Origin: Epibacterium sp. Ofav1-8
GTDB taxonomy: Bacteria; Pseudomonadota; Alphaproteobacteria; Rhodobacterales; Rhodobacteraceae
Assembly (NCBI RefSeq): GCF_022348185.1
Contig: NZ_JAKRFD010000011.1
Location: 62,001 to 126,000 of the forward strand
Direction: 5' to 3'
DNA length: 64,000 bases
In this document: positions 3,643-13,023 of the stretch, piece after piece
How positions within the stretch are numbered: the stretch's first letter is position 1
Layout: every line of letters starts with the position of its first letter
Notes under the pieces: generated by a model
The model's input: the letters and a program-made list of their open reading frames with translations, nothing else
Databases searched by the model: none
Told to the model about the DNA's origin: nothing
Translations under genes and position numbers: made by a program

Positions 3643-4473
3643 GGGTCCGTTGCATTAACTTCTCGGATCACGCAGATTTCACTCACAGTTGACAATGGAG
3701 GAGCCGATGGCGCAACGCAAGAACCCGTTCAAGCGGCATAGGTTTCCGCGTGAGGTCATCTTGCTTGCGGTGCGCTGGTACTGTCGCTACCCACTGTCGT
3801 GCCGCGACGTCCGTGACATGCTAGCTGAGCGGGGCGTGAAGGTCGATGCCTCAACCATCCACCGTTGGGTTCTCAAGTTCGGCCCCGAGATCCGCAAGCG
3901 TGCCTATGGCGCCCATCGGTCCTGGCGTGGGCTGCAGTGGCATGTGGACGAAACCTATATCCGGGTCGGCGGGCGCTGGTGCTACCTTTGGAGAGCGGTG
4001 GATCAGTTTGGCCAGTTGATCGATTTTCGGCTGACGGCAAAGCGAAATGCCAAGGCGGCAAGGGCCTTTATGCGACAGGCCCAGGAAGCCGTACGCCTAT
4101 ACCATCCGCTGACCATCGTCACTGACAAGGCGCACAGCTATGCGAAGGTAATTGGCCAGATCAATGCCCGCCTCGCGCCGGAGGATGTGATCCGGCACGT
4201 CGATCGGAAATACCTGAACAATCGGATCGAGAGCGATCATGCCGCATTGACGCAGCGACTACGTCCGATGCGCGGATTCCGGACCATGGCCGGAGCCAAG
4301 GCGGCTCTCGCCGGGATCGAAACCTACCGAACGATCCGAAAGGGCCAGTTCGAAAACTGCGAGAGAGGGGTTGCTAACGAGATCGACTTCGTGGCCAAAC
4401 TTTTCCCCGAAGCCGCATAACGGGAGTGGCTGCAGCTATCACGCCGCGCTTACAGCGTTAATGCAACAGACCC
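3643..4473 (+). mobile_element. IS6-family insertion sequence, complete (831 bp)
   Basis: It is bounded by imperfect inverted repeats: GGGTCCGTTGCATTAAC at 3643-3659 and its near-complement at 4457-4473 (one mismatch). The only gene inside is an intact IS6-type DDE transposase. The 8-bp flanks (CACCGCAC on the left, TCATGTCG on the right) do not match. There is thus no target duplication, which fits an element left behind after replicative transposition followed by recombination or deletion. Confidence 0.9.
3707..4420 (+). CDS. IS6-family transposase
   Basis: A 237-residue DDE transposase of the IS6/IS26 type. The N-terminus carries the helix-turn-helix (SCRDVRDMLAERGVKVDASTIHRWV), followed by the catalytic core: first Asp in WHVDETYIRV, second in IVTDKAHSY and Glu in NNRIESDHAALTQRLRPMRGF. 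The GFRTM and RKGQF motifs also match the family. I chose the ATG at 3707 because GGAGGA lies 5-10 bases upstream; an in-frame ATG at 3689 is less well placed. It appears full length, so the element may be active. Confidence 0.92.
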   Translation: MAQRKNPFKRHRFPREVILLAVRWYCRYPLSCRDVRDMLAERGVKVDASTIHRWVLKFGPEIRKRAYGAHRSWRGLQWHVDETYIRVGGRWCYLWRAVDQFGQLIDFRLTAKRNAKAARAFMRQAQEAVRLYHPLTIVTDKAHSYAKVIGQINARLAPEDVIRHVDRKYLNNRIESDHAALTQRLRPMRGFRTMAGAKAALAGIETYRTIRKGQFENCERGVANEIDFVAKLFPEAA

Positions 4474-5163
4474 TCATGTCGGATTGCGTCAGAAACTTCG
4501 ACATACTTCTTGGATGGGCAGCGGGACATTGAGCGTACTTGGACGTCCGGCAGGTCCCGAGCCCTCACGCGGTGGCGGGGTTCTTGCTGCGCAGCCGGTC
4601 GAGTGACGGCTTCGGGGAAAGCGGCAATGCAGCAACTGATGCTGTCGACCGGCAGCAAAGGGCCGGTCACGTCTTCGGGCCTGGCTGGCCGCTGCGACTT
4701 TGCAAAGGTCACTATCTGCGCCTCGCTGCCCTTGGAGCTGACCGCAGCATCAGCAAGGGCCGCCACCGTCTGCTGAACGGCGGCTTTCGGGAAAGCTCTC
4801 GCGCTCGCAGCAGCGCCTTCATTGCACCCTGTATGAATTTCGTGTTTGGGCTGCCTGCGGCCACCAACGGAAGCACCTTCAGCCGTCCAGGCGCGTGACC
4901 AGCCCGCTGCGCCGCCGCAAGGCGGCTTTGAGCCCGACGCGGTCCTTGTGATTCTTCGCTGCGCGCGCTCGCAGCACAAGCATTTCAGCAGGTGCGAAAG
5001 GACTCGTGCCGCCTTGCGGCGGGAAATCCGGTCATTCTAGGTGTGAAACGATGGCGCGTTTGGCGGGAACTCGCGCAGCGCCTAAAACCATAGGTTGCAA
5101 AGCTGGCCGTACGACGGTAACACTTTACCAAATTGTTAGCGCTACCCTAAAGAGAGTTTATTG
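4474..5163. other. Intergenic stretch with a degenerate dispersed repeat and the promoter side of the biosynthetic operon
   Basis: No convincing gene lies here. The reading frames in this stretch have no family resemblance and no ribosome binding site. Bases about 4668-5040 form a non-coding segment that recurs at 38105-38478. The last 120 bases lead into the ATP-grasp gene and include an 8-bp palindrome TAGCGCTA at 5137-5144, set in TTGTTAGCGCTACCC, that resembles a half-degenerate LacI/GntR-type operator. AGAGAG at 5151-5156 is a weak ribosome binding site for the ATG at 5164. Confidence 0.5.
4668..5040 (+). repeat. Dispersed non-coding repeat, copy A
   Basis: About 370 bp that align by eye over their whole length with 38105-38478 in the same orientation. 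Shared blocks include GGCCGC-GACTTTGCAAAG, a TCGCGCT-TCGCAGCAG block, GCACCCTG-ATGAAT and CCGG-CATTC at the end. Numerous substitutions and small indels show the copies are old. Neither copy has an open frame or inverted-repeat ends, so its nature is unknown. Confidence 0.55.
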
Positions 5164-6462
5164 ATGTTTGATTCTGGATCAGAGGTCGTTCGAGCGGCAT
5201 TGCGCTACGATAAAGGTCGTGACCCCGAAGACACTTCTTTTCTTGACGCGAGTACGTATAAGCCTGACCCGGACAACTACATAGACGTCATCGCGCCGCT
5301 GCCGGTATTCGATGCGGCATTCGCAGATGACATCGTTTCTGTTGGCCTCGAAGTGTCGAACTTGGTCGCCGACATTCTCGATGCTGTCTTTGCCGGGTCG
5401 GTGGAGGCCATGATGGAATGGCAGGGTATTCCGACCGAAATGCGCAGCTTGGTTTCGTTCGACAGCGACGACCGCGGATTGCTTTTAGGGCGTTTCTTCT
5501 GCCGACCTGACCTGATCGTTGGTCCTGACGGCCCTCTTGTTCTTGAGGTGAACTTTGGCCCTTCGAACGGCAGCCTTGCGTTGGCTGACACCGTTCAATC
5601 ACGTTTCGCGGAAACCGATCAGGGTAACGCGCTGACCCAACAGGGGATTGTCCTGCGGCCCCCGGCTTCCATGAAGACGCTGGCAGATGCGCTCGGGCGT
5701 GTCCTGCGGCGCTGCGCAACAGATACGTCACATCGCCATCTGCTTGTTGCCGTCGCCACGAAAGAGGAAGCAGAAGAGCCCAAGGGGCACATTGTCGACT
5801 TCTGCGACGGCCTTTCCGATCTTGGCTTCGATGTGTCTCTCGCACGGCTCTCGGACATCTGCGCGGACGGCAAGACCGCGTCTCTCGGGGGGCGCAGGAT
5901 CGATGCCATTTATTGCATGTGCACGTTCGCCGAGATCCAGCGCAATGACGTCCCGCACTCACTCCTGCTCGACCTCATCGCACTGGACCGTGCTGCCGAA
6001 CTGGATTTCATTGGCGGCCCGGCCCACCTGCTGTTTGATAACAAGGCCAATCTCGCCTTGCTGCACGAGCCGATCGCTGATGCGTGTTTTGATCCCAACC
6101 GTCTCACATATGTGCGGGAACACGTCGCCAAGACCGCCATGGCAACTCATCACAACCCGAAAAATGGTCCGGTCATTTACAAGCCTGTTAATGATTACGG
6201 CGGCTTCGGCATCACCTTTGATCACCGCGTGGTTGCAGCAGCTTCCAGAAGTTATATTGCTCAGGACATCGTTCCAAATGCCTGCAGATGGGTCGATGAC
6301 ACCGGCAACCATACGCGCCACCTGTGTTTCGGTCCCAGCTTCGTTGGCGGGAGCCATGCCTCGACGCTTTTGCGGGCGAAATCCGCAGAGGGAGCGGTGC
6401 CGATCATAAACGCAGCCCAGGGTGCAGCCGTGGGCCCAGTTCTGATCCGGGACCAAGCATAA
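5164..6462 (+). CDS. ATP-grasp-type ligase (putative amide-bond-forming enzyme)
   Basis: This 432-residue protein has the feel of an ATP-grasp fold like glutathionylspermidine-synthase or permuted ATP-grasp ligases. LLLGRFFCRPDLIVGPDG followed by LVLEVNFGPSNGSLAL (about 112-145) looks like a nucleotide/metal-binding strand with Glu and Asn. FIGGPAHLLFDNKANLALL (about 278-296) and GPVIYKPVNDYGGFGI (about 335-350) resemble the lysine-containing ATP-binding loops. If the fold is right, it would activate a carboxylate as acyl phosphate and join it to an amine. It is the first gene of a six-gene operon, 3 bp before the adenylation gene. The start ATG is preceded by AGAGAG; a TTG three bases earlier is possible. 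Fold assignment is moderate and substrate unknown. Confidence 0.6.
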   Translation: MFDSGSEVVRAALRYDKGRDPEDTSFLDASTYKPDPDNYIDVIAPLPVFDAAFADDIVSVGLEVSNLVADILDAVFAGSVEAMMEWQGIPTEMRSLVSFDSDDRGLLLGRFFCRPDLIVGPDGPLVLEVNFGPSNGSLALADTVQSRFAETDQGNALTQQGIVLRPPASMKTLADALGRVLRRCATDTSHRHLLVAVATKEEAEEPKGHIVDFCDGLSDLGFDVSLARLSDICADGKTASLGGRRIDAIYCMCTFAEIQRNDVPHSLLLDLIALDRAAELDFIGGPAHLLFDNKANLALLHEPIADACFDPNRLTYVREHVAKTAMATHHNPKNGPVIYKPVNDYGGFGITFDHRVVAAASRSYIAQDIVPNACRWVDDTGNHTRHLCFGPSFVGGSHASTLLRAKSAEGAVPIINAAQGAAVGPVLIRDQA

Positions 6463-6465
6463 CCG

Positions 6466-7992
6466 ATGTTGTCCAGCGCTTTTCTTGATGGGTTTCTGAC
6501 CAACACCCAACGCTCACCCGAACGTCCTGCGATCATCGTCGATGATCAGGTGGCGGGCTTTTCGGAAACGCTGGCCCGGGCCAAAAGTGTTGCCCGTGCA
6601 TTTCGCAAGCGCGGATTGAAGCCCGGAAAACGCGTTTCGTTTTACACCGAAAACAGCACAGAAGCGGTTACAGTAGCGATTGGTGCGCTTCTCTCCAACG
6701 CGACGTTCACCTCGATGCACCACAGCTTCAGCACCAGGCGTTTGGCGCAAAAACTCGCGAATTGCGGTGCGTCCTTTCTGGTCACCGACCGGATGGATCG
6801 AGTCAACACTGCCGATCATGGCCTGTCGCCTGCATTCACGGAACACGACATGCACATTCTGGCGCGACGGGATGACCTTGCTTCGACAAGTCCGGACCTG
6901 GGCGCGATTTTCTACACCTCTGGCTCTTCAGGCCATCCAAAGGGGGTCGCCATGCGCACACAGGCCATGCTTGCCGCGCAATCGGCTGTAACCCGTTACA
7001 TCGGTATCGACGGGACCGATGTCGTCATGTCCTTTGCGACGCTTGGATCCGATTTCGGCTTTTACAATTGTTTCATCCCGTTGAACGCCGGAGCCACCGT
7101 GGTGATGGAGCGCAAATCGCCCGATGCCAGCGGCTCCATATTCGACCGGATGACACGACATGGCGTGACGGGCTTGCACGTATTTCCGAACGTGCTGCAC
7201 GACATTGTCGCGGGAGCAGGCCCGCAAACGCGATACCCCGGCCTGCGTTACATCTGTTCCACCGGACAAGCATTTCCAATCGCGCTTTTGCCTGCATTGC
7301 GCCGAATTTTCCCCAATGCCGAAATCCTGTCGAGTTACGGCATGACCGAATGCAAACGCATTGCCTACCTTCCCGATAGCGCGCTTGATGGTGCCGCCGG
7401 ATCAATCGGCCGCCCTCTGCCTGGGCTGCGCGCCTACCTTCTAGATGCAAACGATGAAATCGTCCGCGGTACGGATCGGATCGGCGAGCTCGCACTCGCC
7501 GGTCCGCAGCTGATGGAAGGCTATTGGAACGACGCAGGCGCAACCAAAAAAACCATGCTCTATGACGTCTTCGGGGAAACCAAGGTGTTCCGCACCGGTG
7601 ATATGTTCCGCCGGGATGCTGCTGGATGCTACTGGTTCGTCGGAAGACGTGATGAAATGTTCACTCGGCGCGGCTTTCAGGTCGACCCGCGCGAAATCGA
7701 ACGCGCCGCCTTGTCAGTTCCCGGAATTCGCGACGCTTTGGTCGTTGCTATCCCCCACCCCGTAGATGGGCATTTGCCCGGCCTGGCCGTGGCAGGTCAC
7801 TTCAACCCGGATGAGCGAGACGCTGTCGAGGCGGCCCTCAGAAAAGCCTGCCATCAGCGGCTCGAAGCGCATATGCAGCCGGACCGCTATCTGCTGCTGG
7901 AGACCCTTCCCCGCGAAGGTTCCGGCAAGCTCTGCCGCAAGACAGTGCTCACCCAATTTCAAAACACGCAGCACAACGAGCCCACTTCATGA
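6466..7992 (+). CDS. Stand-alone AMP-forming adenylation enzyme (acyl/aminoacyl ligase)
   Basis: A 508-residue ANL-superfamily enzyme that should activate a carboxylic or amino acid as its adenylate. Core motifs are readable: A3 FYTSGSSGHPKGV (about 147), A5 SSYGMTECKR (about 289), A7 VFRTGDMF (about 377), A8 GRRDEMFTRRGFQVDPREIE (about 393) and the catalytic lysine in PREGSGKLCRK near residue 490. There is no attached carrier or condensation domain, and no carrier protein gene lies nearby, so the adenylate may pass to CoA or directly to an amine. Its stop overlaps the next start by 4 bp. Alternatives are an acyl-CoA ligase or an NRPS-like free A domain. Confidence 0.82.
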   Translation: MLSSAFLDGFLTNTQRSPERPAIIVDDQVAGFSETLARAKSVARAFRKRGLKPGKRVSFYTENSTEAVTVAIGALLSNATFTSMHHSFSTRRLAQKLANCGASFLVTDRMDRVNTADHGLSPAFTEHDMHILARRDDLASTSPDLGAIFYTSGSSGHPKGVAMRTQAMLAAQSAVTRYIGIDGTDVVMSFATLGSDFGFYNCFIPLNAGATVVMERKSPDASGSIFDRMTRHGVTGLHVFPNVLHDIVAGAGPQTRYPGLRYICSTGQAFPIALLPALRRIFPNAEILSSYGMTECKRIAYLPDSALDGAAGSIGRPLPGLRAYLLDANDEIVRGTDRIGELALAGPQLMEGYWNDAGATKKTMLYDVFGETKVFRTGDMFRRDAAGCYWFVGRRDEMFTRRGFQVDPREIERAALSVPGIRDALVVAIPHPVDGHLPGLAVAGHFNPDERDAVEAALRKACHQRLEAHMQPDRYLLLETLPREGSGKLCRKTVLTQFQNTQHNEPTS

Positions 7993-8951
7993 CCATCATA
8001 TCAGATACCGTGCAGCCCGAGGGAGGCCGCTATTGCGGGTCGTCCATGCAAAAACTCGGGACCCGATTTGACAAGCTGGCGACAGGTGCCATCCAGCGCC
8101 CCAAGGCGCCGGTCACGTCCGTCTTCGGAGAATCCGACGTCGGCGCAGATCGCGCCGCCTACCAGACAGAACTCAGCAACGGTGCAGGCCCCCTGTTCAT
8201 GCACTTCATGGCAAGCATCCCCTGCATTCAGGAAGAGATGGCGCGCATCGGATGTGCCACGGCGGAATGGGCTCTGGAACGGCAGGCTGAAACTGGCAGA
8301 CCTCTGCAGTTTTTTGAGATGGACGCGTTCGACGGAACCCAAGCCAGAACCTTAGCCAATTTGGCGGGGGCCGCAATCCGCACGCTGACCTGTTCCCCGA
8401 ATCCGGCAAACGAGGAGTATTTCAAACGTCTCGCTCAACCCGAGATCAGCCAATATGCACAGTGCAGCCTATTTGACGTGCTCGCTCCGGCCGCGGGGTT
8501 CGAGGATGGGTTTGACCTGATCTATGAAACCGCCGCGTTGCAGTTCTATGGACCGGAACGGACACGGCAATTGGCGCATGTGGCGTCCCACCTTGCCTCC
8601 GACGGTGTCGCGATCTTCCTGGAAAAGATGAACCACGACGACCCAATGGAGTACCAGCGCCGGGAGACCGCCAAAGACATGAATTTCAAAACACGGTATT
8701 TTTCGATCGAGGAAATCGAATGGAAAACCCGTAATTTCCTGCATGACATGGTGCGCGGTCAGGTCACTTTGCAGCAGTTCGCAACGGCAGCGCAGAACCA
8801 TTTTGCCCATACAAGGGTGATTTGGCACAGCACCAATTTCTACGAGGTTGCCGCCTCCAACGATCTCGTGGCGCTGGAGACCTTCTGCGGTCGGCTCGGG
8901 CCCATGGCTATCGAAAGCGATTTCGTCTTTGATCAGGCGGACGCGTTTTGA
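7989..8951 (+). CDS. SAM-dependent methyltransferase-like protein
   Basis: This 320-residue protein has a Rossmann-like central part. LQFFEMDAFDGTQARTLANL (about 98-117) would be the first strand and loop, FDLIYETAALQFYGPER (about 175) the strand-4 acidic region, and VASHLASDGVAIFLEKMNHDD (about 197) the strand-5 hairpin. This order fits a class I methyltransferase fold, but the usual GxGxG loop is not evident, so the donor may not be SAM in the standard way. The gene overlaps both neighbours by 4 bp, so translation is coupled. Call is by fold pattern only; substrate unknown. Confidence 0.5.
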   Translation: MTIISDTVQPEGGRYCGSSMQKLGTRFDKLATGAIQRPKAPVTSVFGESDVGADRAAYQTELSNGAGPLFMHFMASIPCIQEEMARIGCATAEWALERQAETGRPLQFFEMDAFDGTQARTLANLAGAAIRTLTCSPNPANEEYFKRLAQPEISQYAQCSLFDVLAPAAGFEDGFDLIYETAALQFYGPERTRQLAHVASHLASDGVAIFLEKMNHDDPMEYQRRETAKDMNFKTRYFSIEEIEWKTRNFLHDMVRGQVTLQQFATAAQNHFAHTRVIWHSTNFYEVAASNDLVALETFCGRLGPMAIESDFVFDQADAF

Positions 8952-10129
8952 TTTCGCCGGCACTTCATCCAATGGCTGATCCGGCGATATGCACCAAAGT
9001 CCATGATGCCGCCCGGTCCTGGCGTGACCGCGCTCGCTCTCGACGCGGTCACGATGCTTTGCCTGAGCAGACTGTAGCGGAGCTGAAGCATTTTGATTTT
9101 ATGGGTGTGTGGCAGGCGCCCGAAGTCAATTGGACAACAATTTGCGAAATCTCGCGCCTGGCTGCGCAAGCCTGCCCCTCAACGGGGTGGGTCCTCGTCA
9201 ATTGTATCGGACACGCGCTTATCGCTGATCGGTTTCCAGATGCGCTTGCCAAGCGGGTTTTTTCGGATAATCCCGCACCGGTTATTGCCACGGCCATGGC
9301 CGCACGCGACACGAACATCATTAACCACGATGATGGCGGCCTCACGATCTCGGGCCGGTTCGTGAACAGTTCCGGCATCGATCATGCGGACTGGGTCCTG
9401 TTGAAACTGCCCGCCGGACCGAATGGACAACCGCGATACGTGCCCTGCGAAACCAGTCGCATTTCGATTGAACGGACGTGGAAAACTTCTGGGCTGATGG
9501 CCAGCGGCACCCACAGCTTTTCCGTCGAACTTTCGGTTCCCAAAACTGAGGTTGCCGACTGGGAACCGTGCCTGAAGGGGAATCGCCCCTCCGATGAGGT
9601 GGATGGTAACTATCTTAGGTCGATGCCCATGATCGCCTATCTCGGGACCTCGTTGATTGCACCGATCCTGGGCTGCGCTGAGGCGCTCTTTCGCGAACAT
9701 GAACGTCTGATCGTGCGTCGCACAAGGGACGTTGGCCTGAACAGCGCACCGGAGTTGACGGCTCTTGGTGAGAGCGCGATGGAGCTGACCACGGCGCAAC
9801 TCCTTTATCGGGATTTGCTGGACTGGCTTCATGACAAGGGATCACAGGCGCGCAGCATTTCTGCGGAAGAGGTCAAGATTTGCCGTGCCAAGGCCGCCAC
9901 GCTTGTTCGGCTGTGTGGCACAGCTGCGAAACGGTTACAGGACACCTGCGGCATGGCCGTGCTGTCCGAGGATGCGCCCGCACAAGGATATTGGTGCGAT
10001 CTGCAGGTCATGTCCGCCCATTCCGACGTGCGCTATGGCATCTCGCTGCAGGACTACGGTCAAATCTGTTTTGACGCCGCAAAAACAACCATCACTGCGA
10101 CCGGGAGTAATCAACATGATTGTGCGTGA
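8948..10129 (+). CDS. Acyl-CoA-dehydrogenase-fold flavoprotein, group D monooxygenase-like
   Basis: The 393-residue sequence follows the N-terminal, beta-barrel and C-terminal order of the acyl-CoA dehydrogenase/HpaB-type oxygenase family. Landmarks are ACPSTGWVLVNCIGHALIADRF (about 77-98), GGLTISGRFVNSSGIDHADW (about 130-150) and WKTSGLMASGTHSFSVE (about 178). The family's two-component members use reduced flavin from a partner reductase to hydroxylate N or C; others are dehydrogenases. No reductase gene is next to it. The frame begins at a TTG overlapping the upstream stop (TTGA); an ATG at 8972 is an alternative start. It ends 14 bp inside the next gene. Confidence 0.7.
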   Translation: MISPALHPMADPAICTKVHDAARSWRDRARSRRGHDALPEQTVAELKHFDFMGVWQAPEVNWTTICEISRLAAQACPSTGWVLVNCIGHALIADRFPDALAKRVFSDNPAPVIATAMAARDTNIINHDDGGLTISGRFVNSSGIDHADWVLLKLPAGPNGQPRYVPCETSRISIERTWKTSGLMASGTHSFSVELSVPKTEVADWEPCLKGNRPSDEVDGNYLRSMPMIAYLGTSLIAPILGCAEALFREHERLIVRRTRDVGLNSAPELTALGESAMELTTAQLLYRDLLDWLHDKGSQARSISAEEVKICRAKAATLVRLCGTAAKRLQDTCGMAVLSEDAPAQGYWCDLQVMSAHSDVRYGISLQDYGQICFDAAKTTITATGSNQHDCA

Positions 10130-10502
10130 TATCAACGACGTTGCCCAAGCCGGGCTGTGTGTGGAATGGGGCGGCGGAACCAGCCATCGCTACCTGACCG
10201 ATCAGGACAAGATGGGCTTTACGGTGTGCCGCACCGTGGTCTACCCGGGCACCGAGGCCCGGATGGAATACAAACGCCATCTGGAAGCCTGCTACTGCAT
10301 CGCCGGAACCGGCGAGGTCGTGACCTCGACCGGGAAAACCCACGCGCTGCGTCCCGATGTGCTCTATGGGCTGGAAAAGAACGACGCGCATACACTGCGC
10401 AATACCGGCGACACCGATCTTGTGCTGCTCAGCGTCTTTAATCCGCCGCTCATCGGGTCGGAAGTGCACAACCTCTCCGACACCGGTTACTCGGGATACT
10501 GA
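10116..10502 (+). CDS. Ectoine-synthase-like cupin (EctC homologue)
   Basis: A 128-residue single-domain cupin. It starts MIVRDINDV, as EctC proteins do, and has the EctC-like blocks TVCRTVVYPGTEARMEYKRH (about 38-57), LEACYCIAGTGEVV, LRPDVLYGLEKNDAHTLR and FNPPLIGSEVH near the C-terminus. EctC closes the tetrahydropyrimidine ring of ectoine from N-gamma-acetyl-diaminobutyrate. Here ectA and ectB are missing, so it more likely cyclises or dehydrates the product of the upstream ligases. The ATG at 10116 has GGGAG 9-13 bases upstream and overlaps the flavoprotein gene by 14 bp. Family call is strong; reaction is inference. Confidence 0.82.
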   Translation: MIVRDINDVAQAGLCVEWGGGTSHRYLTDQDKMGFTVCRTVVYPGTEARMEYKRHLEACYCIAGTGEVVTSTGKTHALRPDVLYGLEKNDAHTLRNTGDTDLVLLSVFNPPLIGSEVHNLSDTGYSGY

Positions 10503-10506
10503 TAAC

Positions 10507-11742
10507 ATGATTGCACTGGCCCGAGCGTCCCTTCTGTCCACCCATGGGTTCATTGCCGGAAACCTGCGTTGGCTGGGTGTGGGCTTTGTCCTGTTCTTCC
10601 TGTCATCGCTGGGACAAACCTATTTTATTGGCCTGAGCATTGGCGACATCCGTCAGGAATTCGACCTGTCACATGGCGACATAGGCCTGTTGAACATGGT
10701 GCTGACGCTTCTCAGCGGAGTGGCGGTTTTTGCCACCGGAAAATGGAGCGATCAGCTTTCACCACGCAAACTTATTGCGATCCTGTTGCCTGTTCTGGCG
10801 GTAGGTGCCGTATTGTTTCAGTCGCTGGTGTCGTTGCAGATCATTCTGCTGGGTTTGCTGATCCTGCGCATTTTTGCCCAGGGTTTCCTGACTCATATCG
10901 CCTTTGTCGTGGTTGGGCGCTGGTTCAATGCGCGGCGGGGAATGGCCATTGCTGTCACATCGATCGGACAAAACATCGGCCAGATGCTGTTGCCTGTGTC
11001 CTTTGTTGCGCTTTCTGCACTGATCGGCTGGCGGACAAGCTGGATCTTGATTGCGGTCATGTTGCTGTTGCTCACACCCTTTTTGATGCGACTTGCATCA
11101 TCAGAAAGGACCGCCGAAGCGGTAGCCGACACTGCGCATGCCGGTGAACCTGACCAAAGCGTTCGTAGTCTGACGCGTGCCGAGGTCCTCAGAAGACCTG
11201 AGTTCCACGCATATGTTTTTGCCATTCTGCCAATGGCTTTGGTAGTCAATACGATTTTCTTTCATCAGGTCCATCTGACAGAGACCCGCGGGTGGGGGTT
11301 GGATGCTTTCACGGCATCATATTCCGTCATGGCCGTATCCACGATTCTTGCGGGATTTGGTGCTGGATGGCTGGTTGATCGGTTCTCTGCCGTGGCGCTG
11401 TTGCCGTACTATCTGATCCCGCTGTTGGTGGCGTGTCTGCTTCTCGCAGTCAGCACTGCACCATGGATCATGGTGCCTTTCATGGCGCTCGTCGGCATAT
11501 CAAATGGCTTCTCGCTCAACCTTTATGGCGCGGTTTGGGCCGAGGCCTTTGGAACAGACCATCTTGGCGCCATTCGCTCCGTTGTCACCATGATTGTGAT
11601 TTTCGCTGCCGCTGTCGGCCCTGGCGGGGCAGGGGTGCTGCTTGATATGGGCTTCGGATTTGGGACGATCTATTTCTTGCTTTGCGCTCTCTGTACGATT
11701 GCAAGCGCCGTGGTTTGGCCATTTACTTATAGAGCGCAGTAA
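10507..11742 (+). CDS. Major facilitator superfamily transporter
   Basis: A 411-residue integral membrane protein with about 12 hydrophobic segments. It has an MFS-like start (YFIGLSIGDIRQEFDLSHGDIGLLNMVLTLLSG), the loop-2/3 region FATGKWSDQLSPRKL and a cytoplasmic middle loop around residues 200-235. The second half repeats the pattern, ending IYFLLCALCTIASAVVWPFTY. It starts 4 bp after the cupin stop and closes the operon, so export of the cluster product (or uptake of its precursor) is the natural reading. The ATG at 10507 was chosen because an earlier in-frame ATG lies inside the cupin gene. Confidence 0.85.
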   Translation: MIALARASLLSTHGFIAGNLRWLGVGFVLFFLSSLGQTYFIGLSIGDIRQEFDLSHGDIGLLNMVLTLLSGVAVFATGKWSDQLSPRKLIAILLPVLAVGAVLFQSLVSLQIILLGLLILRIFAQGFLTHIAFVVVGRWFNARRGMAIAVTSIGQNIGQMLLPVSFVALSALIGWRTSWILIAVMLLLLTPFLMRLASSERTAEAVADTAHAGEPDQSVRSLTRAEVLRRPEFHAYVFAILPMALVVNTIFFHQVHLTETRGWGLDAFTASYSVMAVSTILAGFGAGWLVDRFSAVALLPYYLIPLLVACLLLAVSTAPWIMVPFMALVGISNGFSLNLYGAVWAEAFGTDHLGAIRSVVTMIVIFAAAVGPGGAGVLLDMGFGFGTIYFLLCALCTIASAVVWPFTYRAQ

Positions 11743-12112
11743 CTCAGCGCCAGAGATTATGTCTTGCGGCCAAATCACCTGCGATCGCTGTGGCGAAGAG
11801 GAAGGTTCCAGGGTCGGCTAAGTCCGCCGTGGCGATACTCTGGCTAGCCGCTGCGATTTGGCAGCCGTGGTTTCATGGAAGTCGCCCCGTGCAAATGAAC
11901 GGTCTGGTGGCGCGGGCTGTCACGCGGCAAAATATGTGCCGCAATGGCAAACCTATGCTGCGTCAGCAATAGCGGCATCTGCATAACTCTGGTTTGTCCG
12001 CTCAGCCGACTTCGGCCTTCGACAAAGTTGCTGCTCTTGTGTGCTGTCGCGACGAAGGTCAGAAGGGAGCCCTTGTTGACCTTTTTGCACATCGCGGCAA
12101 AGGTCAGCGATC
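11743..12112. other. 370-bp non-coding stretch after the biosynthetic operon
   Basis: No gene, RNA or clear terminator is visible. The block CTGGCTAGCCGCTGCGATTT near 11840 resembles part of the dispersed repeat at 4680, and the rest has the same GC-skewed, palindrome-rich look. It may be a very decayed copy. Reading frames here are short and lack ribosome binding sites. Confidence 0.4.
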
Positions 12113-12634
12113 ATGGCCTTCCCGCAAGAAAACCCAAAAAGCTCGATTGCATTTCGATCATATCAAAGAAAGGACCGCACTTGGGTCGCAGATGCCAACA
12201 TGCGGTTCTATCGCACCTTTCACAACTTCGATTCCACCTTCGTTTATGCCGTCAGCGCGGCATTGGATCTGGTGGAAGGTCAGATGTCAAAGGTGCGCAA
12301 ATTTTACCTGATCGCCGAATGCGGTGGTCAACCTGTTGGCTGCATATTTCTCAGCGCTGAAACATCGACCGTATCTCGGATACGATTGTTTTATCTTGAT
12401 GAGGCATATCGTGGCCGAGGCACCGGGAAGCGTCTCTTGAGCGCCGTCGTGACCGCAGCGAGGGAGAAAGAGTTCAAGTCAGTTCGTGTCTCGACCTTTG
12501 ATCGACATCCCGAAGCGTGTGGGCTCTACGAGTCCGCCGGATTTGAAGCTGTGCGAACGGTCCGATCCATGGCGTTCGGCCAGGATATGCAGCAGGTGGA
12601 TTACGAGCTGCTGCTCGCTGGCGGCGACCTGTAG
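12113..12634 (+). CDS. GNAT-family N-acetyltransferase
   Basis: The 173-residue product has the GNAT acetyl-CoA-binding signature: the beta4 strand RIRLFYLDEAYRGRGTGKRL with the Q/RxxGxG/A loop as YRGRGTGK (about residue 100), followed by VRVSTFDRHPEACGLYESAGF (about 126-146), the usual beta5-alpha4-beta6 segment. It would transfer acetyl from acetyl-CoA to an amine of unknown substrate. The last 34 bases overlap the tail of the convergent fosX-like gene on the other strand. It has only a modest upstream purine run (AAAGGTCAGCG). Neighbouring a fosfomycin hydrolase, a detoxification role is plausible but unproven. Confidence 0.82.
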   Translation: MAFPQENPKSSIAFRSYQRKDRTWVADANMRFYRTFHNFDSTFVYAVSAALDLVEGQMSKVRKFYLIAECGGQPVGCIFLSAETSTVSRIRLFYLDEAYRGRGTGKRLLSAVVTAAREKEFKSVRVSTFDRHPEACGLYESAGFEAVRTVRSMAFGQDMQQVDYELLLAGGDL

Positions 12635-13023
12635 CGCTCCAAACGCTCGTCGAGCGTACCGCTGTGCAATTCGAACATATGGTTGTCGTGGTCATAGAAA
12701 TATATCGAGTGCCCCTCGCCTTCGACCCGTGACCGTCCTTCTCGGACGTCCTGTCCAAGCGCTCGGATACGATTCAACCGATCACCATACTTGCCCGGTG
12801 GTATCTTGAAAGCGACGTGGTTGTAGGTGCGCGACCCGAGCGGGGCGCTTTCCATCGTGGCGATCCATAGTCCTCCGACGTCGAAGAAACGCTCTTTGGA
12901 CAGGGAAAATGTTTCATCGCCGCTATCGTAGATCTTCTTCGCATCCAGAACCTGCGTCAGCACCTTCTCCATCTTGTCCAGGTCCCTGACGATGAAGGTC
13001 ATGTGGCTCAAGCCTTCGATCAC
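12601..13023 (-). CDS. fosX: FosX-like fosfomycin hydrolase (vicinal oxygen chelate family)
   Basis: A 140-residue glyoxalase-fold protein that closely follows the FosX pattern: MIEGLSHMTFIVRDL at the N-terminus with metal ligand His7, SGDETFSLSKERFFDVGGLWI, TYNHVAFKIPP with the second His near residue 69, then RVEGEGHSIYFYDHDNHMFELH with the metal-binding Glu near 116 and GTLDERLERY. FosX enzymes add water to the fosfomycin epoxide in a Mn-dependent reaction. The length equals the family's 130-140 residues. The gene is convergent with the GNAT gene, with the stops overlapping by 34 bp. Environmental FosX-like proteins can be weak or have other substrates. Confidence 0.85.
   Translation of the reverse strand: MIEGLSHMTFIVRDLDKMEKVLTQVLDAKKIYDSGDETFSLSKERFFDVGGLWIATMESAPLGSRTYNHVAFKIPPGKYGDRLNRIRALGQDVREGRSRVEGEGHSIYFYDHDNHMFELHSGTLDERLERYRSPPASSSS

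Follow-up and report, generated by a model that had tools for sequence, protein, structure and literature searches.

Operons for the small amide antibiotics dapdiamide and bacilysin hold an ATP-grasp enzyme and an MFS transporter, and in the bacilysin pathway a cupin is found as well. Among the iron cupins, the roles of the ligand residues of ectoine synthase (EctC) are given in the available part of PMC6344544. According to the same part of that paper, orphan EctCs often carry Ser104 and some have their Trp shifted by two residues; the paper describes their function as still unclear. The locus described here lies in a stretch of 64,000 nt of Epibacterium sp. Ofav1-8 (contig NZ_JAKRFD010000011.1, positions 62,001-126,000 of the forward strand), which is called the window below. 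A first-pass annotation of this DNA had matched its gene cluster to no known one, and in the open-access literature searched, which is a part of the whole literature, we likewise found no description of it. The genes of the locus, and a transposase gene adjoining them, are the following.

3704-4420, + strand: IS6-family transposase adjoining the cluster (NF033587, 236 bits against a cut-off of 125)
5164-6462, + strand: predicted circularly permuted ATP-grasp ligase, divergent, 432 aa (profile of five relatives; no Pfam match)
6466-7992, + strand: A-domain-like ligase, stand-alone, 508 aa, without carrier domain (PF00501/PF13193)
7989-8951, + strand: CmoA-related protein with a modelled class I methyltransferase fold (SAM-fold protein), 320 aa (AlphaFold2, Foldseek, hhalign)
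8948-10129, + strand: flavoprotein with acyl-CoA-dehydrogenase fold, of the HpaC2/HsaA/XiaF kind, 393 aa (PF08028, XiaF match)
10116-10502, + strand: orphan EctC-type iron cupin, 128 aa (PF06339)
10507-11742, + strand: MFS transporter, 411 aa (PF07690)

The ORF coordinates agree with the six tightly joined + strand genes annotated at 5164-11742. In gene order the junctions are a 3-bp gap, two 4-bp overlaps, a 14-bp overlap and a 4-bp gap. The 4-bp overlap at the start of the flavoprotein gene depends on a TTG start codon; an ATG further in is an alternative start. Since the genes overlap, a single transcript for all six is likely. An excess of terminator-like sites counts against it: a pattern scan of both strands of 4420-12200 found 15, compared with 9.0 expected from shuffles (sd 3.2), and 10 of the 15 lie on the + strand within the six genes, as pattern matches that are not evidence of function. 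The scan of this region also yielded one promoter-like site (2.6 expected) and none on the + strand. Approximately 370 bases 3' of the MFS gene a GNAT acetyltransferase is encoded (12113-12634, +), whose named matches are weak and which could serve self-protection. A gene for a FosX-type fosfomycin hydrolase occupies 12601-13023 on the - strand (201 bits, NCBIfam cut-off 170).

Relatives of the SAM-fold protein were found in 9 of the 398 genomes of the phylum (own genome included, two of them weak) and in 199 plasmid records. A single scan of genome contigs with an alignment of the window and Agrobacterium vitis sequences reduced 122 stretches to four relatives; as it employed two peptide patterns, members can have been missed. 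In a tree of 20 SAM-fold proteins the six cluster members formed one group (support 100/100) and the 14 others another. All six loci of this clade carry the ligase, the SAM-fold protein, the flavoprotein, the EctC-type cupin and an MFS transporter together, the four enzymes within approximately 4.3 kb and the MFS gene adjoining. Besides the window, these loci belong to A. vitis, Bradyrhizobium aeschynomenes, A. larrymoorei, Actinorugispora endophytica and Nocardiopsis ansamitocini, and they span two phyla. On the A. vitis plasmid pRvVAR031a the five genes and a RidA gene lie within approximately 6 kb, and in A. larrymoorei a RidA-family gene is also found inside the set. RidA proteins clear imines and enamines.

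In the four scanned loci the identity to the window proteins was 50-57.5% for the cupin, 46-49% for the SAM-fold protein and 30-34% for the flavoprotein. The window ligase showed 34-38% identity to its five cluster partners (36-38% in the four scanned loci). Across the six loci the pairwise identities of the four enzymes correlated with r values of 0.96-0.99, based on 15 pairs that are not independent. As a control, 20 loci with SAM-fold relatives outside the clade (6 plus 13 plus one 5.7-kb plasmid) were searched by BLAST and gave no match to the other five window proteins. In one Rhizobiaceae-like family, 18 of 247 genomes encode a SAM-fold relative; 17 of these are without the set and the remaining one is A. 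larrymoorei. Among 296 genomes of Actinomycetota the only one that matched was the seed itself. In view of the control loci, the tree groups and the correlated identities, the core is to be regarded as one inherited unit which has crossed phyla, and we are highly confident that the five-gene set forms one pathway unit. The earlier claim that the genes belong together is borne out for the four enzymes and the MFS gene, which recur in every one of the five further clade loci, more than chance would give.

By identity, the A. vitis ligase is at least as close to ligases of Sinorhizobium and Azospirillum (35-38%, 14 other records listed) as the window ligase is to those of its cluster partners. 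Similarly, an orphan cupin of Rhizobium gallicum is as close to the window cupin (54.7% identity) as most cluster cupins, and no partner genes adjoin it except a weak ligase-like match. The unity of the set is argued from synteny and from the SAM-fold clade.

The gene neighbourhoods bear out the set in two phyla but leave out the ATP-grasp protein, for which no match was detected in 16-29 kb around the other five cluster loci. The annotation of all six genes as one pathway was consequently too wide, because this protein is absent from the conserved set; an operon with all six genes was not found elsewhere in protein searches of genomes and plasmids. Among 295 genomes of the family and 398 of the phylum, a full-length match was obtained in the own genome only: two genomes of each sample matched, the own one included, and the second was each time weak and partial. 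A plasmid search gave no match at E 1e-5 and seven weak records at E 5. Neither of the two genomes with actinomycete clusters gave a match, in a search without positive control. In viral contigs no relative of the ATP-grasp or the SAM-fold protein was found.

Pfam supports the annotated domain names for the ligase, the cupin, the flavoprotein and the MFS transporter. For the ATP-grasp and the SAM-fold protein no Pfam match up to E 0.1 was obtained, so that their names needed other proof, which came from profile or fold comparisons. A profile of five relatives aligned to two CP_ATPgrasp_2-type proteins with an hhalign probability of 96.4 (E 1.2e-9, 365 columns). A two-row profile reached a probability of 2.2, which rose to 96.4 with the addition of three Streptomyces plasmid relatives. 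For two of these plasmid relatives, weak matches to CP_ATPgrasp or GSP_synth models were obtained that did not reach the cut-offs (5e-4 and 7e-4). The label stands on these profiles, which point to a divergent member of the circularly permuted ATP-grasp proteins. An AlphaFold2 model of this protein alone was set aside (pLDDT 32.3).

Transposase genes adjoin the three loci checked: the window has the IS6 gene, A. vitis a Tn3-type gene and A. larrymoorei fragments of Tn3 type. The locus is best read as a mobile specialised-metabolite pathway that moves horizontally. A composite IS6 transposon was rejected, as a single IS6 copy was found across the assembled genome of 37 contigs. A role of the cluster in the biocontrol activity of A. 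vitis VAR03-1 was also discarded; the antagonism of this strain is attributed to a tailocin, and the available part of the respective paper does not mention the plasmid (PMC10811719).

The window cupin matched PF06339 with an E value of 6.1e-36 (123.9 bits against a cut-off of 27). All three iron ligands (Glu57, Tyr84, His92) are present, here and in each of the 10 aligned EctC-like cupins. Of the seven further ligand residues of EctC, the window cupin keeps five (Ser23, Arg25, Thr40, Tyr52, Phe106). The two residues at the substrate that differ are Trp21 and Asn38. Trp21 is replaced by Gly, with a Trp three residues further up at position 18 (10 of 10 EctC-like cupins aligned). Cys is found at the position of Asn38 (9 of 10; EctC of S. 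alaskensis is also without Asn38 in that alignment) and Ser at that of Cys104 (9 of 10). The alignment includes one Vibrio cupin with an unannotated neighbourhood. On contig C31 of the host, ectA-, ectB-, ectC- and aspartokinase-like ORFs lie in a row, preceded by a MarR-like ORF (L074 1518-6005), all but ectC named by eye from the reading frames. Because this row sits on another contig, the window cupin is an orphan, second EctC. The host's own EctC scores higher than the window cupin (201.5 versus 123.1 bits).

The PF06339 score above the cut-off would also suit a spare ectoine synthase for osmoprotection, and an orphan ectC of Pseudomonas syringae yielded ectoine in a Halomonas ectC mutant, as stated in the available part of PMC5924519. 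Nevertheless, this role is very improbable: the genome holds its own ect-like operon, in six of six loci the cupin comes together with a ligase and a flavoprotein, and the window cupin differs in the moved Trp and in Cys for Asn38. A ligase, a carrier protein, an orphan EctC and an acyl-CoA dehydrogenase lie together in Burkholderia stagnalis and on Streptomyces plasmids (L065 6215-9569, L066 4155-9619). On account of these two loci, orphan EctC cupins may commonly draw their substrates from activated amino acids.

The ligase of the window matched PF00501 (E 8.9e-64) and also PF13193, and its best PDB matches were the A domains of LgrA. Its motif SDFGFYN aligns with the Asp of A domains, kept in eight of eight aligned ligases, which we take to be Asp235 of GrsA in the pocket for the alpha-amine. 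This ligase is likely to activate an amino acid. Together with the ATP-grasp protein it would make up the two carboxylate-activating enzymes of the first-pass annotation, a claim with which the assignments agree. The flavoprotein matched PF08028 (E 2.1e-9) and, in the PDB, XiaF as the nearest protein (1.7e-24), the hydroxylase 3afe (2e-16) and HpaC2 (4e-11); NCBIfam equivalog cut-offs were not reached. A flavin reductase gene was not found in the set. The MFS transporter (PF07690, E 1.9e-37) is 42% identical to that of the two actinomycete clusters (tblastn); in the remaining three loci the MFS is a different one. Its best NCBIfam matches are carboxylate carriers (NF049980, far below the cut-off), and because of this resemblance uptake is possible. 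For the MFS proteins of A. vitis and Bradyrhizobium the match is to TIGR00900, a family of H+ antiporters, at scores below the cut-off.

HsaA- and HpaC2-like flavoproteins serve catabolism. Such kinship, the resemblance of the transporter to carboxylate carriers and the absence of a carrier protein would fit a catabolic or detoxifying operon, in which a compound taken up by the MFS transporter is activated by the ligase and degraded by flavoprotein and cupin. We consider this explanation unlikely, since an EctC-type ring-former and an ATP-grasp protein fit biosynthesis, and since three of the six clusters have a different MFS, the two scanned resembling H+ antiporters as described above.

An AlphaFold2 model of the SAM-fold protein, calculated from an alignment of five sequences, had a middling pLDDT of 64.7. 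Foldseek gave CmoA as the top match of this model (E 1.7e-9, 15% identity). With VIA-align 2, Z scores of 17.7 for 3dtn (rmsd 3.5, 210 aligned) and 17.0 for CmoA were obtained, several families being tied at approximately 17. An hhalign comparison with E. coli CmoA reached a probability of 91.5 over 113 columns in the C-terminal half, and CmoA was also nearest in two profile searches (E 4e-4 and 7e-4). The model predicts a class I methyltransferase Rossmann-like fold. A usual class I SAM methyltransferase has a Gly-rich motif after strand 1 and an acidic residue after strand 2. In six of six cluster members the motif after strand 1 is ExDAFDG, with Gly at the first Asp in the 14 others, and the acidic residue after strand 2 is absent in all 20 aligned family members. 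Of the annotation as methyltransferase-like, the fold is supported by the model, whereas the motifs at the SAM site are atypical; judged by these motifs, the protein may not be a methyltransferase. One Arg of CmoA binds a carboxylate. All cluster members except the window protein, which has Thr at the aligned position, share this Arg, and because of this mixture the protein may or may not work as CmoA does. In the own genome TIGR00740 (CmoA) gave no match.

Outside the clade, small plasmids of E. coli and Salmonella, mostly of approximately 5.7 kb and mobilisable, carry a SAM-fold relative next to a LysE exporter gene (locus L022 4297-5689). At least 80% of this two-gene query was covered in 25 of 32 matching plasmid records; in print, unrelated papers only were found for these plasmids among the matches listed. 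An unnamed family of proteins of approximately 470 aa, two scanned members of which had no Pfam match, occurs in 15 of 21 loci with relatives outside the clade. Another family, LuxR/TraR-like in the member scanned, occurs in eight of the 21, and nine contain both AraC-type and MFS families.

The SAM-fold protein might make an amino acid from SAM, as AzeJ makes azetidine-2-carboxylate, with the other enzymes activating, oxidising and ring-closing it. The atypical SAM-site motifs and the pairing of a relative with a LysE exporter would agree with this, as would the azeJ neighbourhoods described in the available part of PMC11794875, which contain stand-alone A domains, ATP-grasps and transporters. 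Two points speak against it. AzeJ was absent from the PDB profile matches and from the best 50 fold matches, an absence that does not exclude kinship, and CmoA, the nearest relative, is not a cyclase. Altogether, such an origin of the amino acid seems doubtful. Still more speculative, and improbable, is a transfer of the aminocarboxypropyl group of SAM by this protein to give a diaminobutyrate-like skeleton which the cupin closes, that is, an ectoine-like heterocycle formed without EctA and EctB by a unit mobile between phyla. If that were true, the SAM-fold relatives that have little besides an exporter, on plasmids of rhizobia and E. coli, would make an amino acid with a toxic or signalling role in one step.

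For the locus as a whole we tentatively propose, with somewhat more doubt than confidence, a carrier-free pathway in which activation and modification of an amino acid are followed by oxidation at the flavoprotein, ring closure at the iron cupin and export. The A-domain-like ligase would adenylate the amino acid in the absence of a carrier protein, and the SAM-fold protein would add a SAM-derived group. Oxidation by the flavoprotein would then yield either a hydroxylated centre or a reactive species, namely an imine or enamine. At the cupin, the iron would hold an amide or acyl oxygen while a neighbouring amine attacks and water is lost, resulting in a small ring such as a cyclic amidine or imine, as in EctC. 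By analogy this EctC-style ring closure is conceivable, although we hold it with slightly greater reserve than the pathway itself. The MFS transporter would export the product. In the source strain, the extra ATP-grasp protein would join one more amine or amino acid by an amide bond. The amide or dipeptide intermediate suggested in the first-pass annotation, its oxidation and its cyclisation are conceivable in the same way. The data show the gene set and its unity, the fold assignments, the intact iron site of the cupin and the Asp of the ligase; all substrates, the order of the steps, the product with its ring and the direction of transport are here as we infer them. The analysis brings to light an unnamed group within the methyltransferase-fold proteins whose motifs at the SAM site are unusual, and an orphan EctC with fixed partner enzymes in six of six loci of two phyla offers a small, clonable system for finding its substrate.

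Compared with the window, the dapdiamide and bacilysin pathways have other oxidases and no SAM-fold protein, and the bacilysin cupin is not of the EctC type. CmoA, the carboxy-S-adenosylmethionine synthase, has the class I fold in common with the window SAM-fold protein and is alignable in the C-terminal half, whereas the latter has a changed strand-1 motif and has lost the strand-2 acid. As far as described in the available part of PMC11794875, the AzeJ/VioH clusters combine a class I fold, stand-alone A domains and ATP-grasps and are sparse and mobile, like the window. In contrast, we detected no sequence kinship of AzeJ/VioH to the window SAM-fold protein in the PDB profile matches, and that part of the paper names no cupin for azeJ clusters. 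The sets of B. stagnalis and Streptomyces resemble the window in that an amino-acid-type ligase adjoins an orphan EctC and a protein of the acyl-CoA-dehydrogenase family. However, their ligases belong to another lineage (26-27% identity to that of the window), their dehydrogenase gave no BLAST match to that of the window at E 1e-3, and they have a carrier protein and no SAM-fold gene annotated adjoining, whereas the window set is without carrier. With EctC and the orphan EctC-type cupins, as characterised in the available parts of PMC6344544 and PMC5924519, the window cupin shares PF06339, the iron ligands and five of seven ligand residues, but in contrast to EctC it is found outside an ect operon, together with a ligase, a flavoprotein and a SAM-fold protein.
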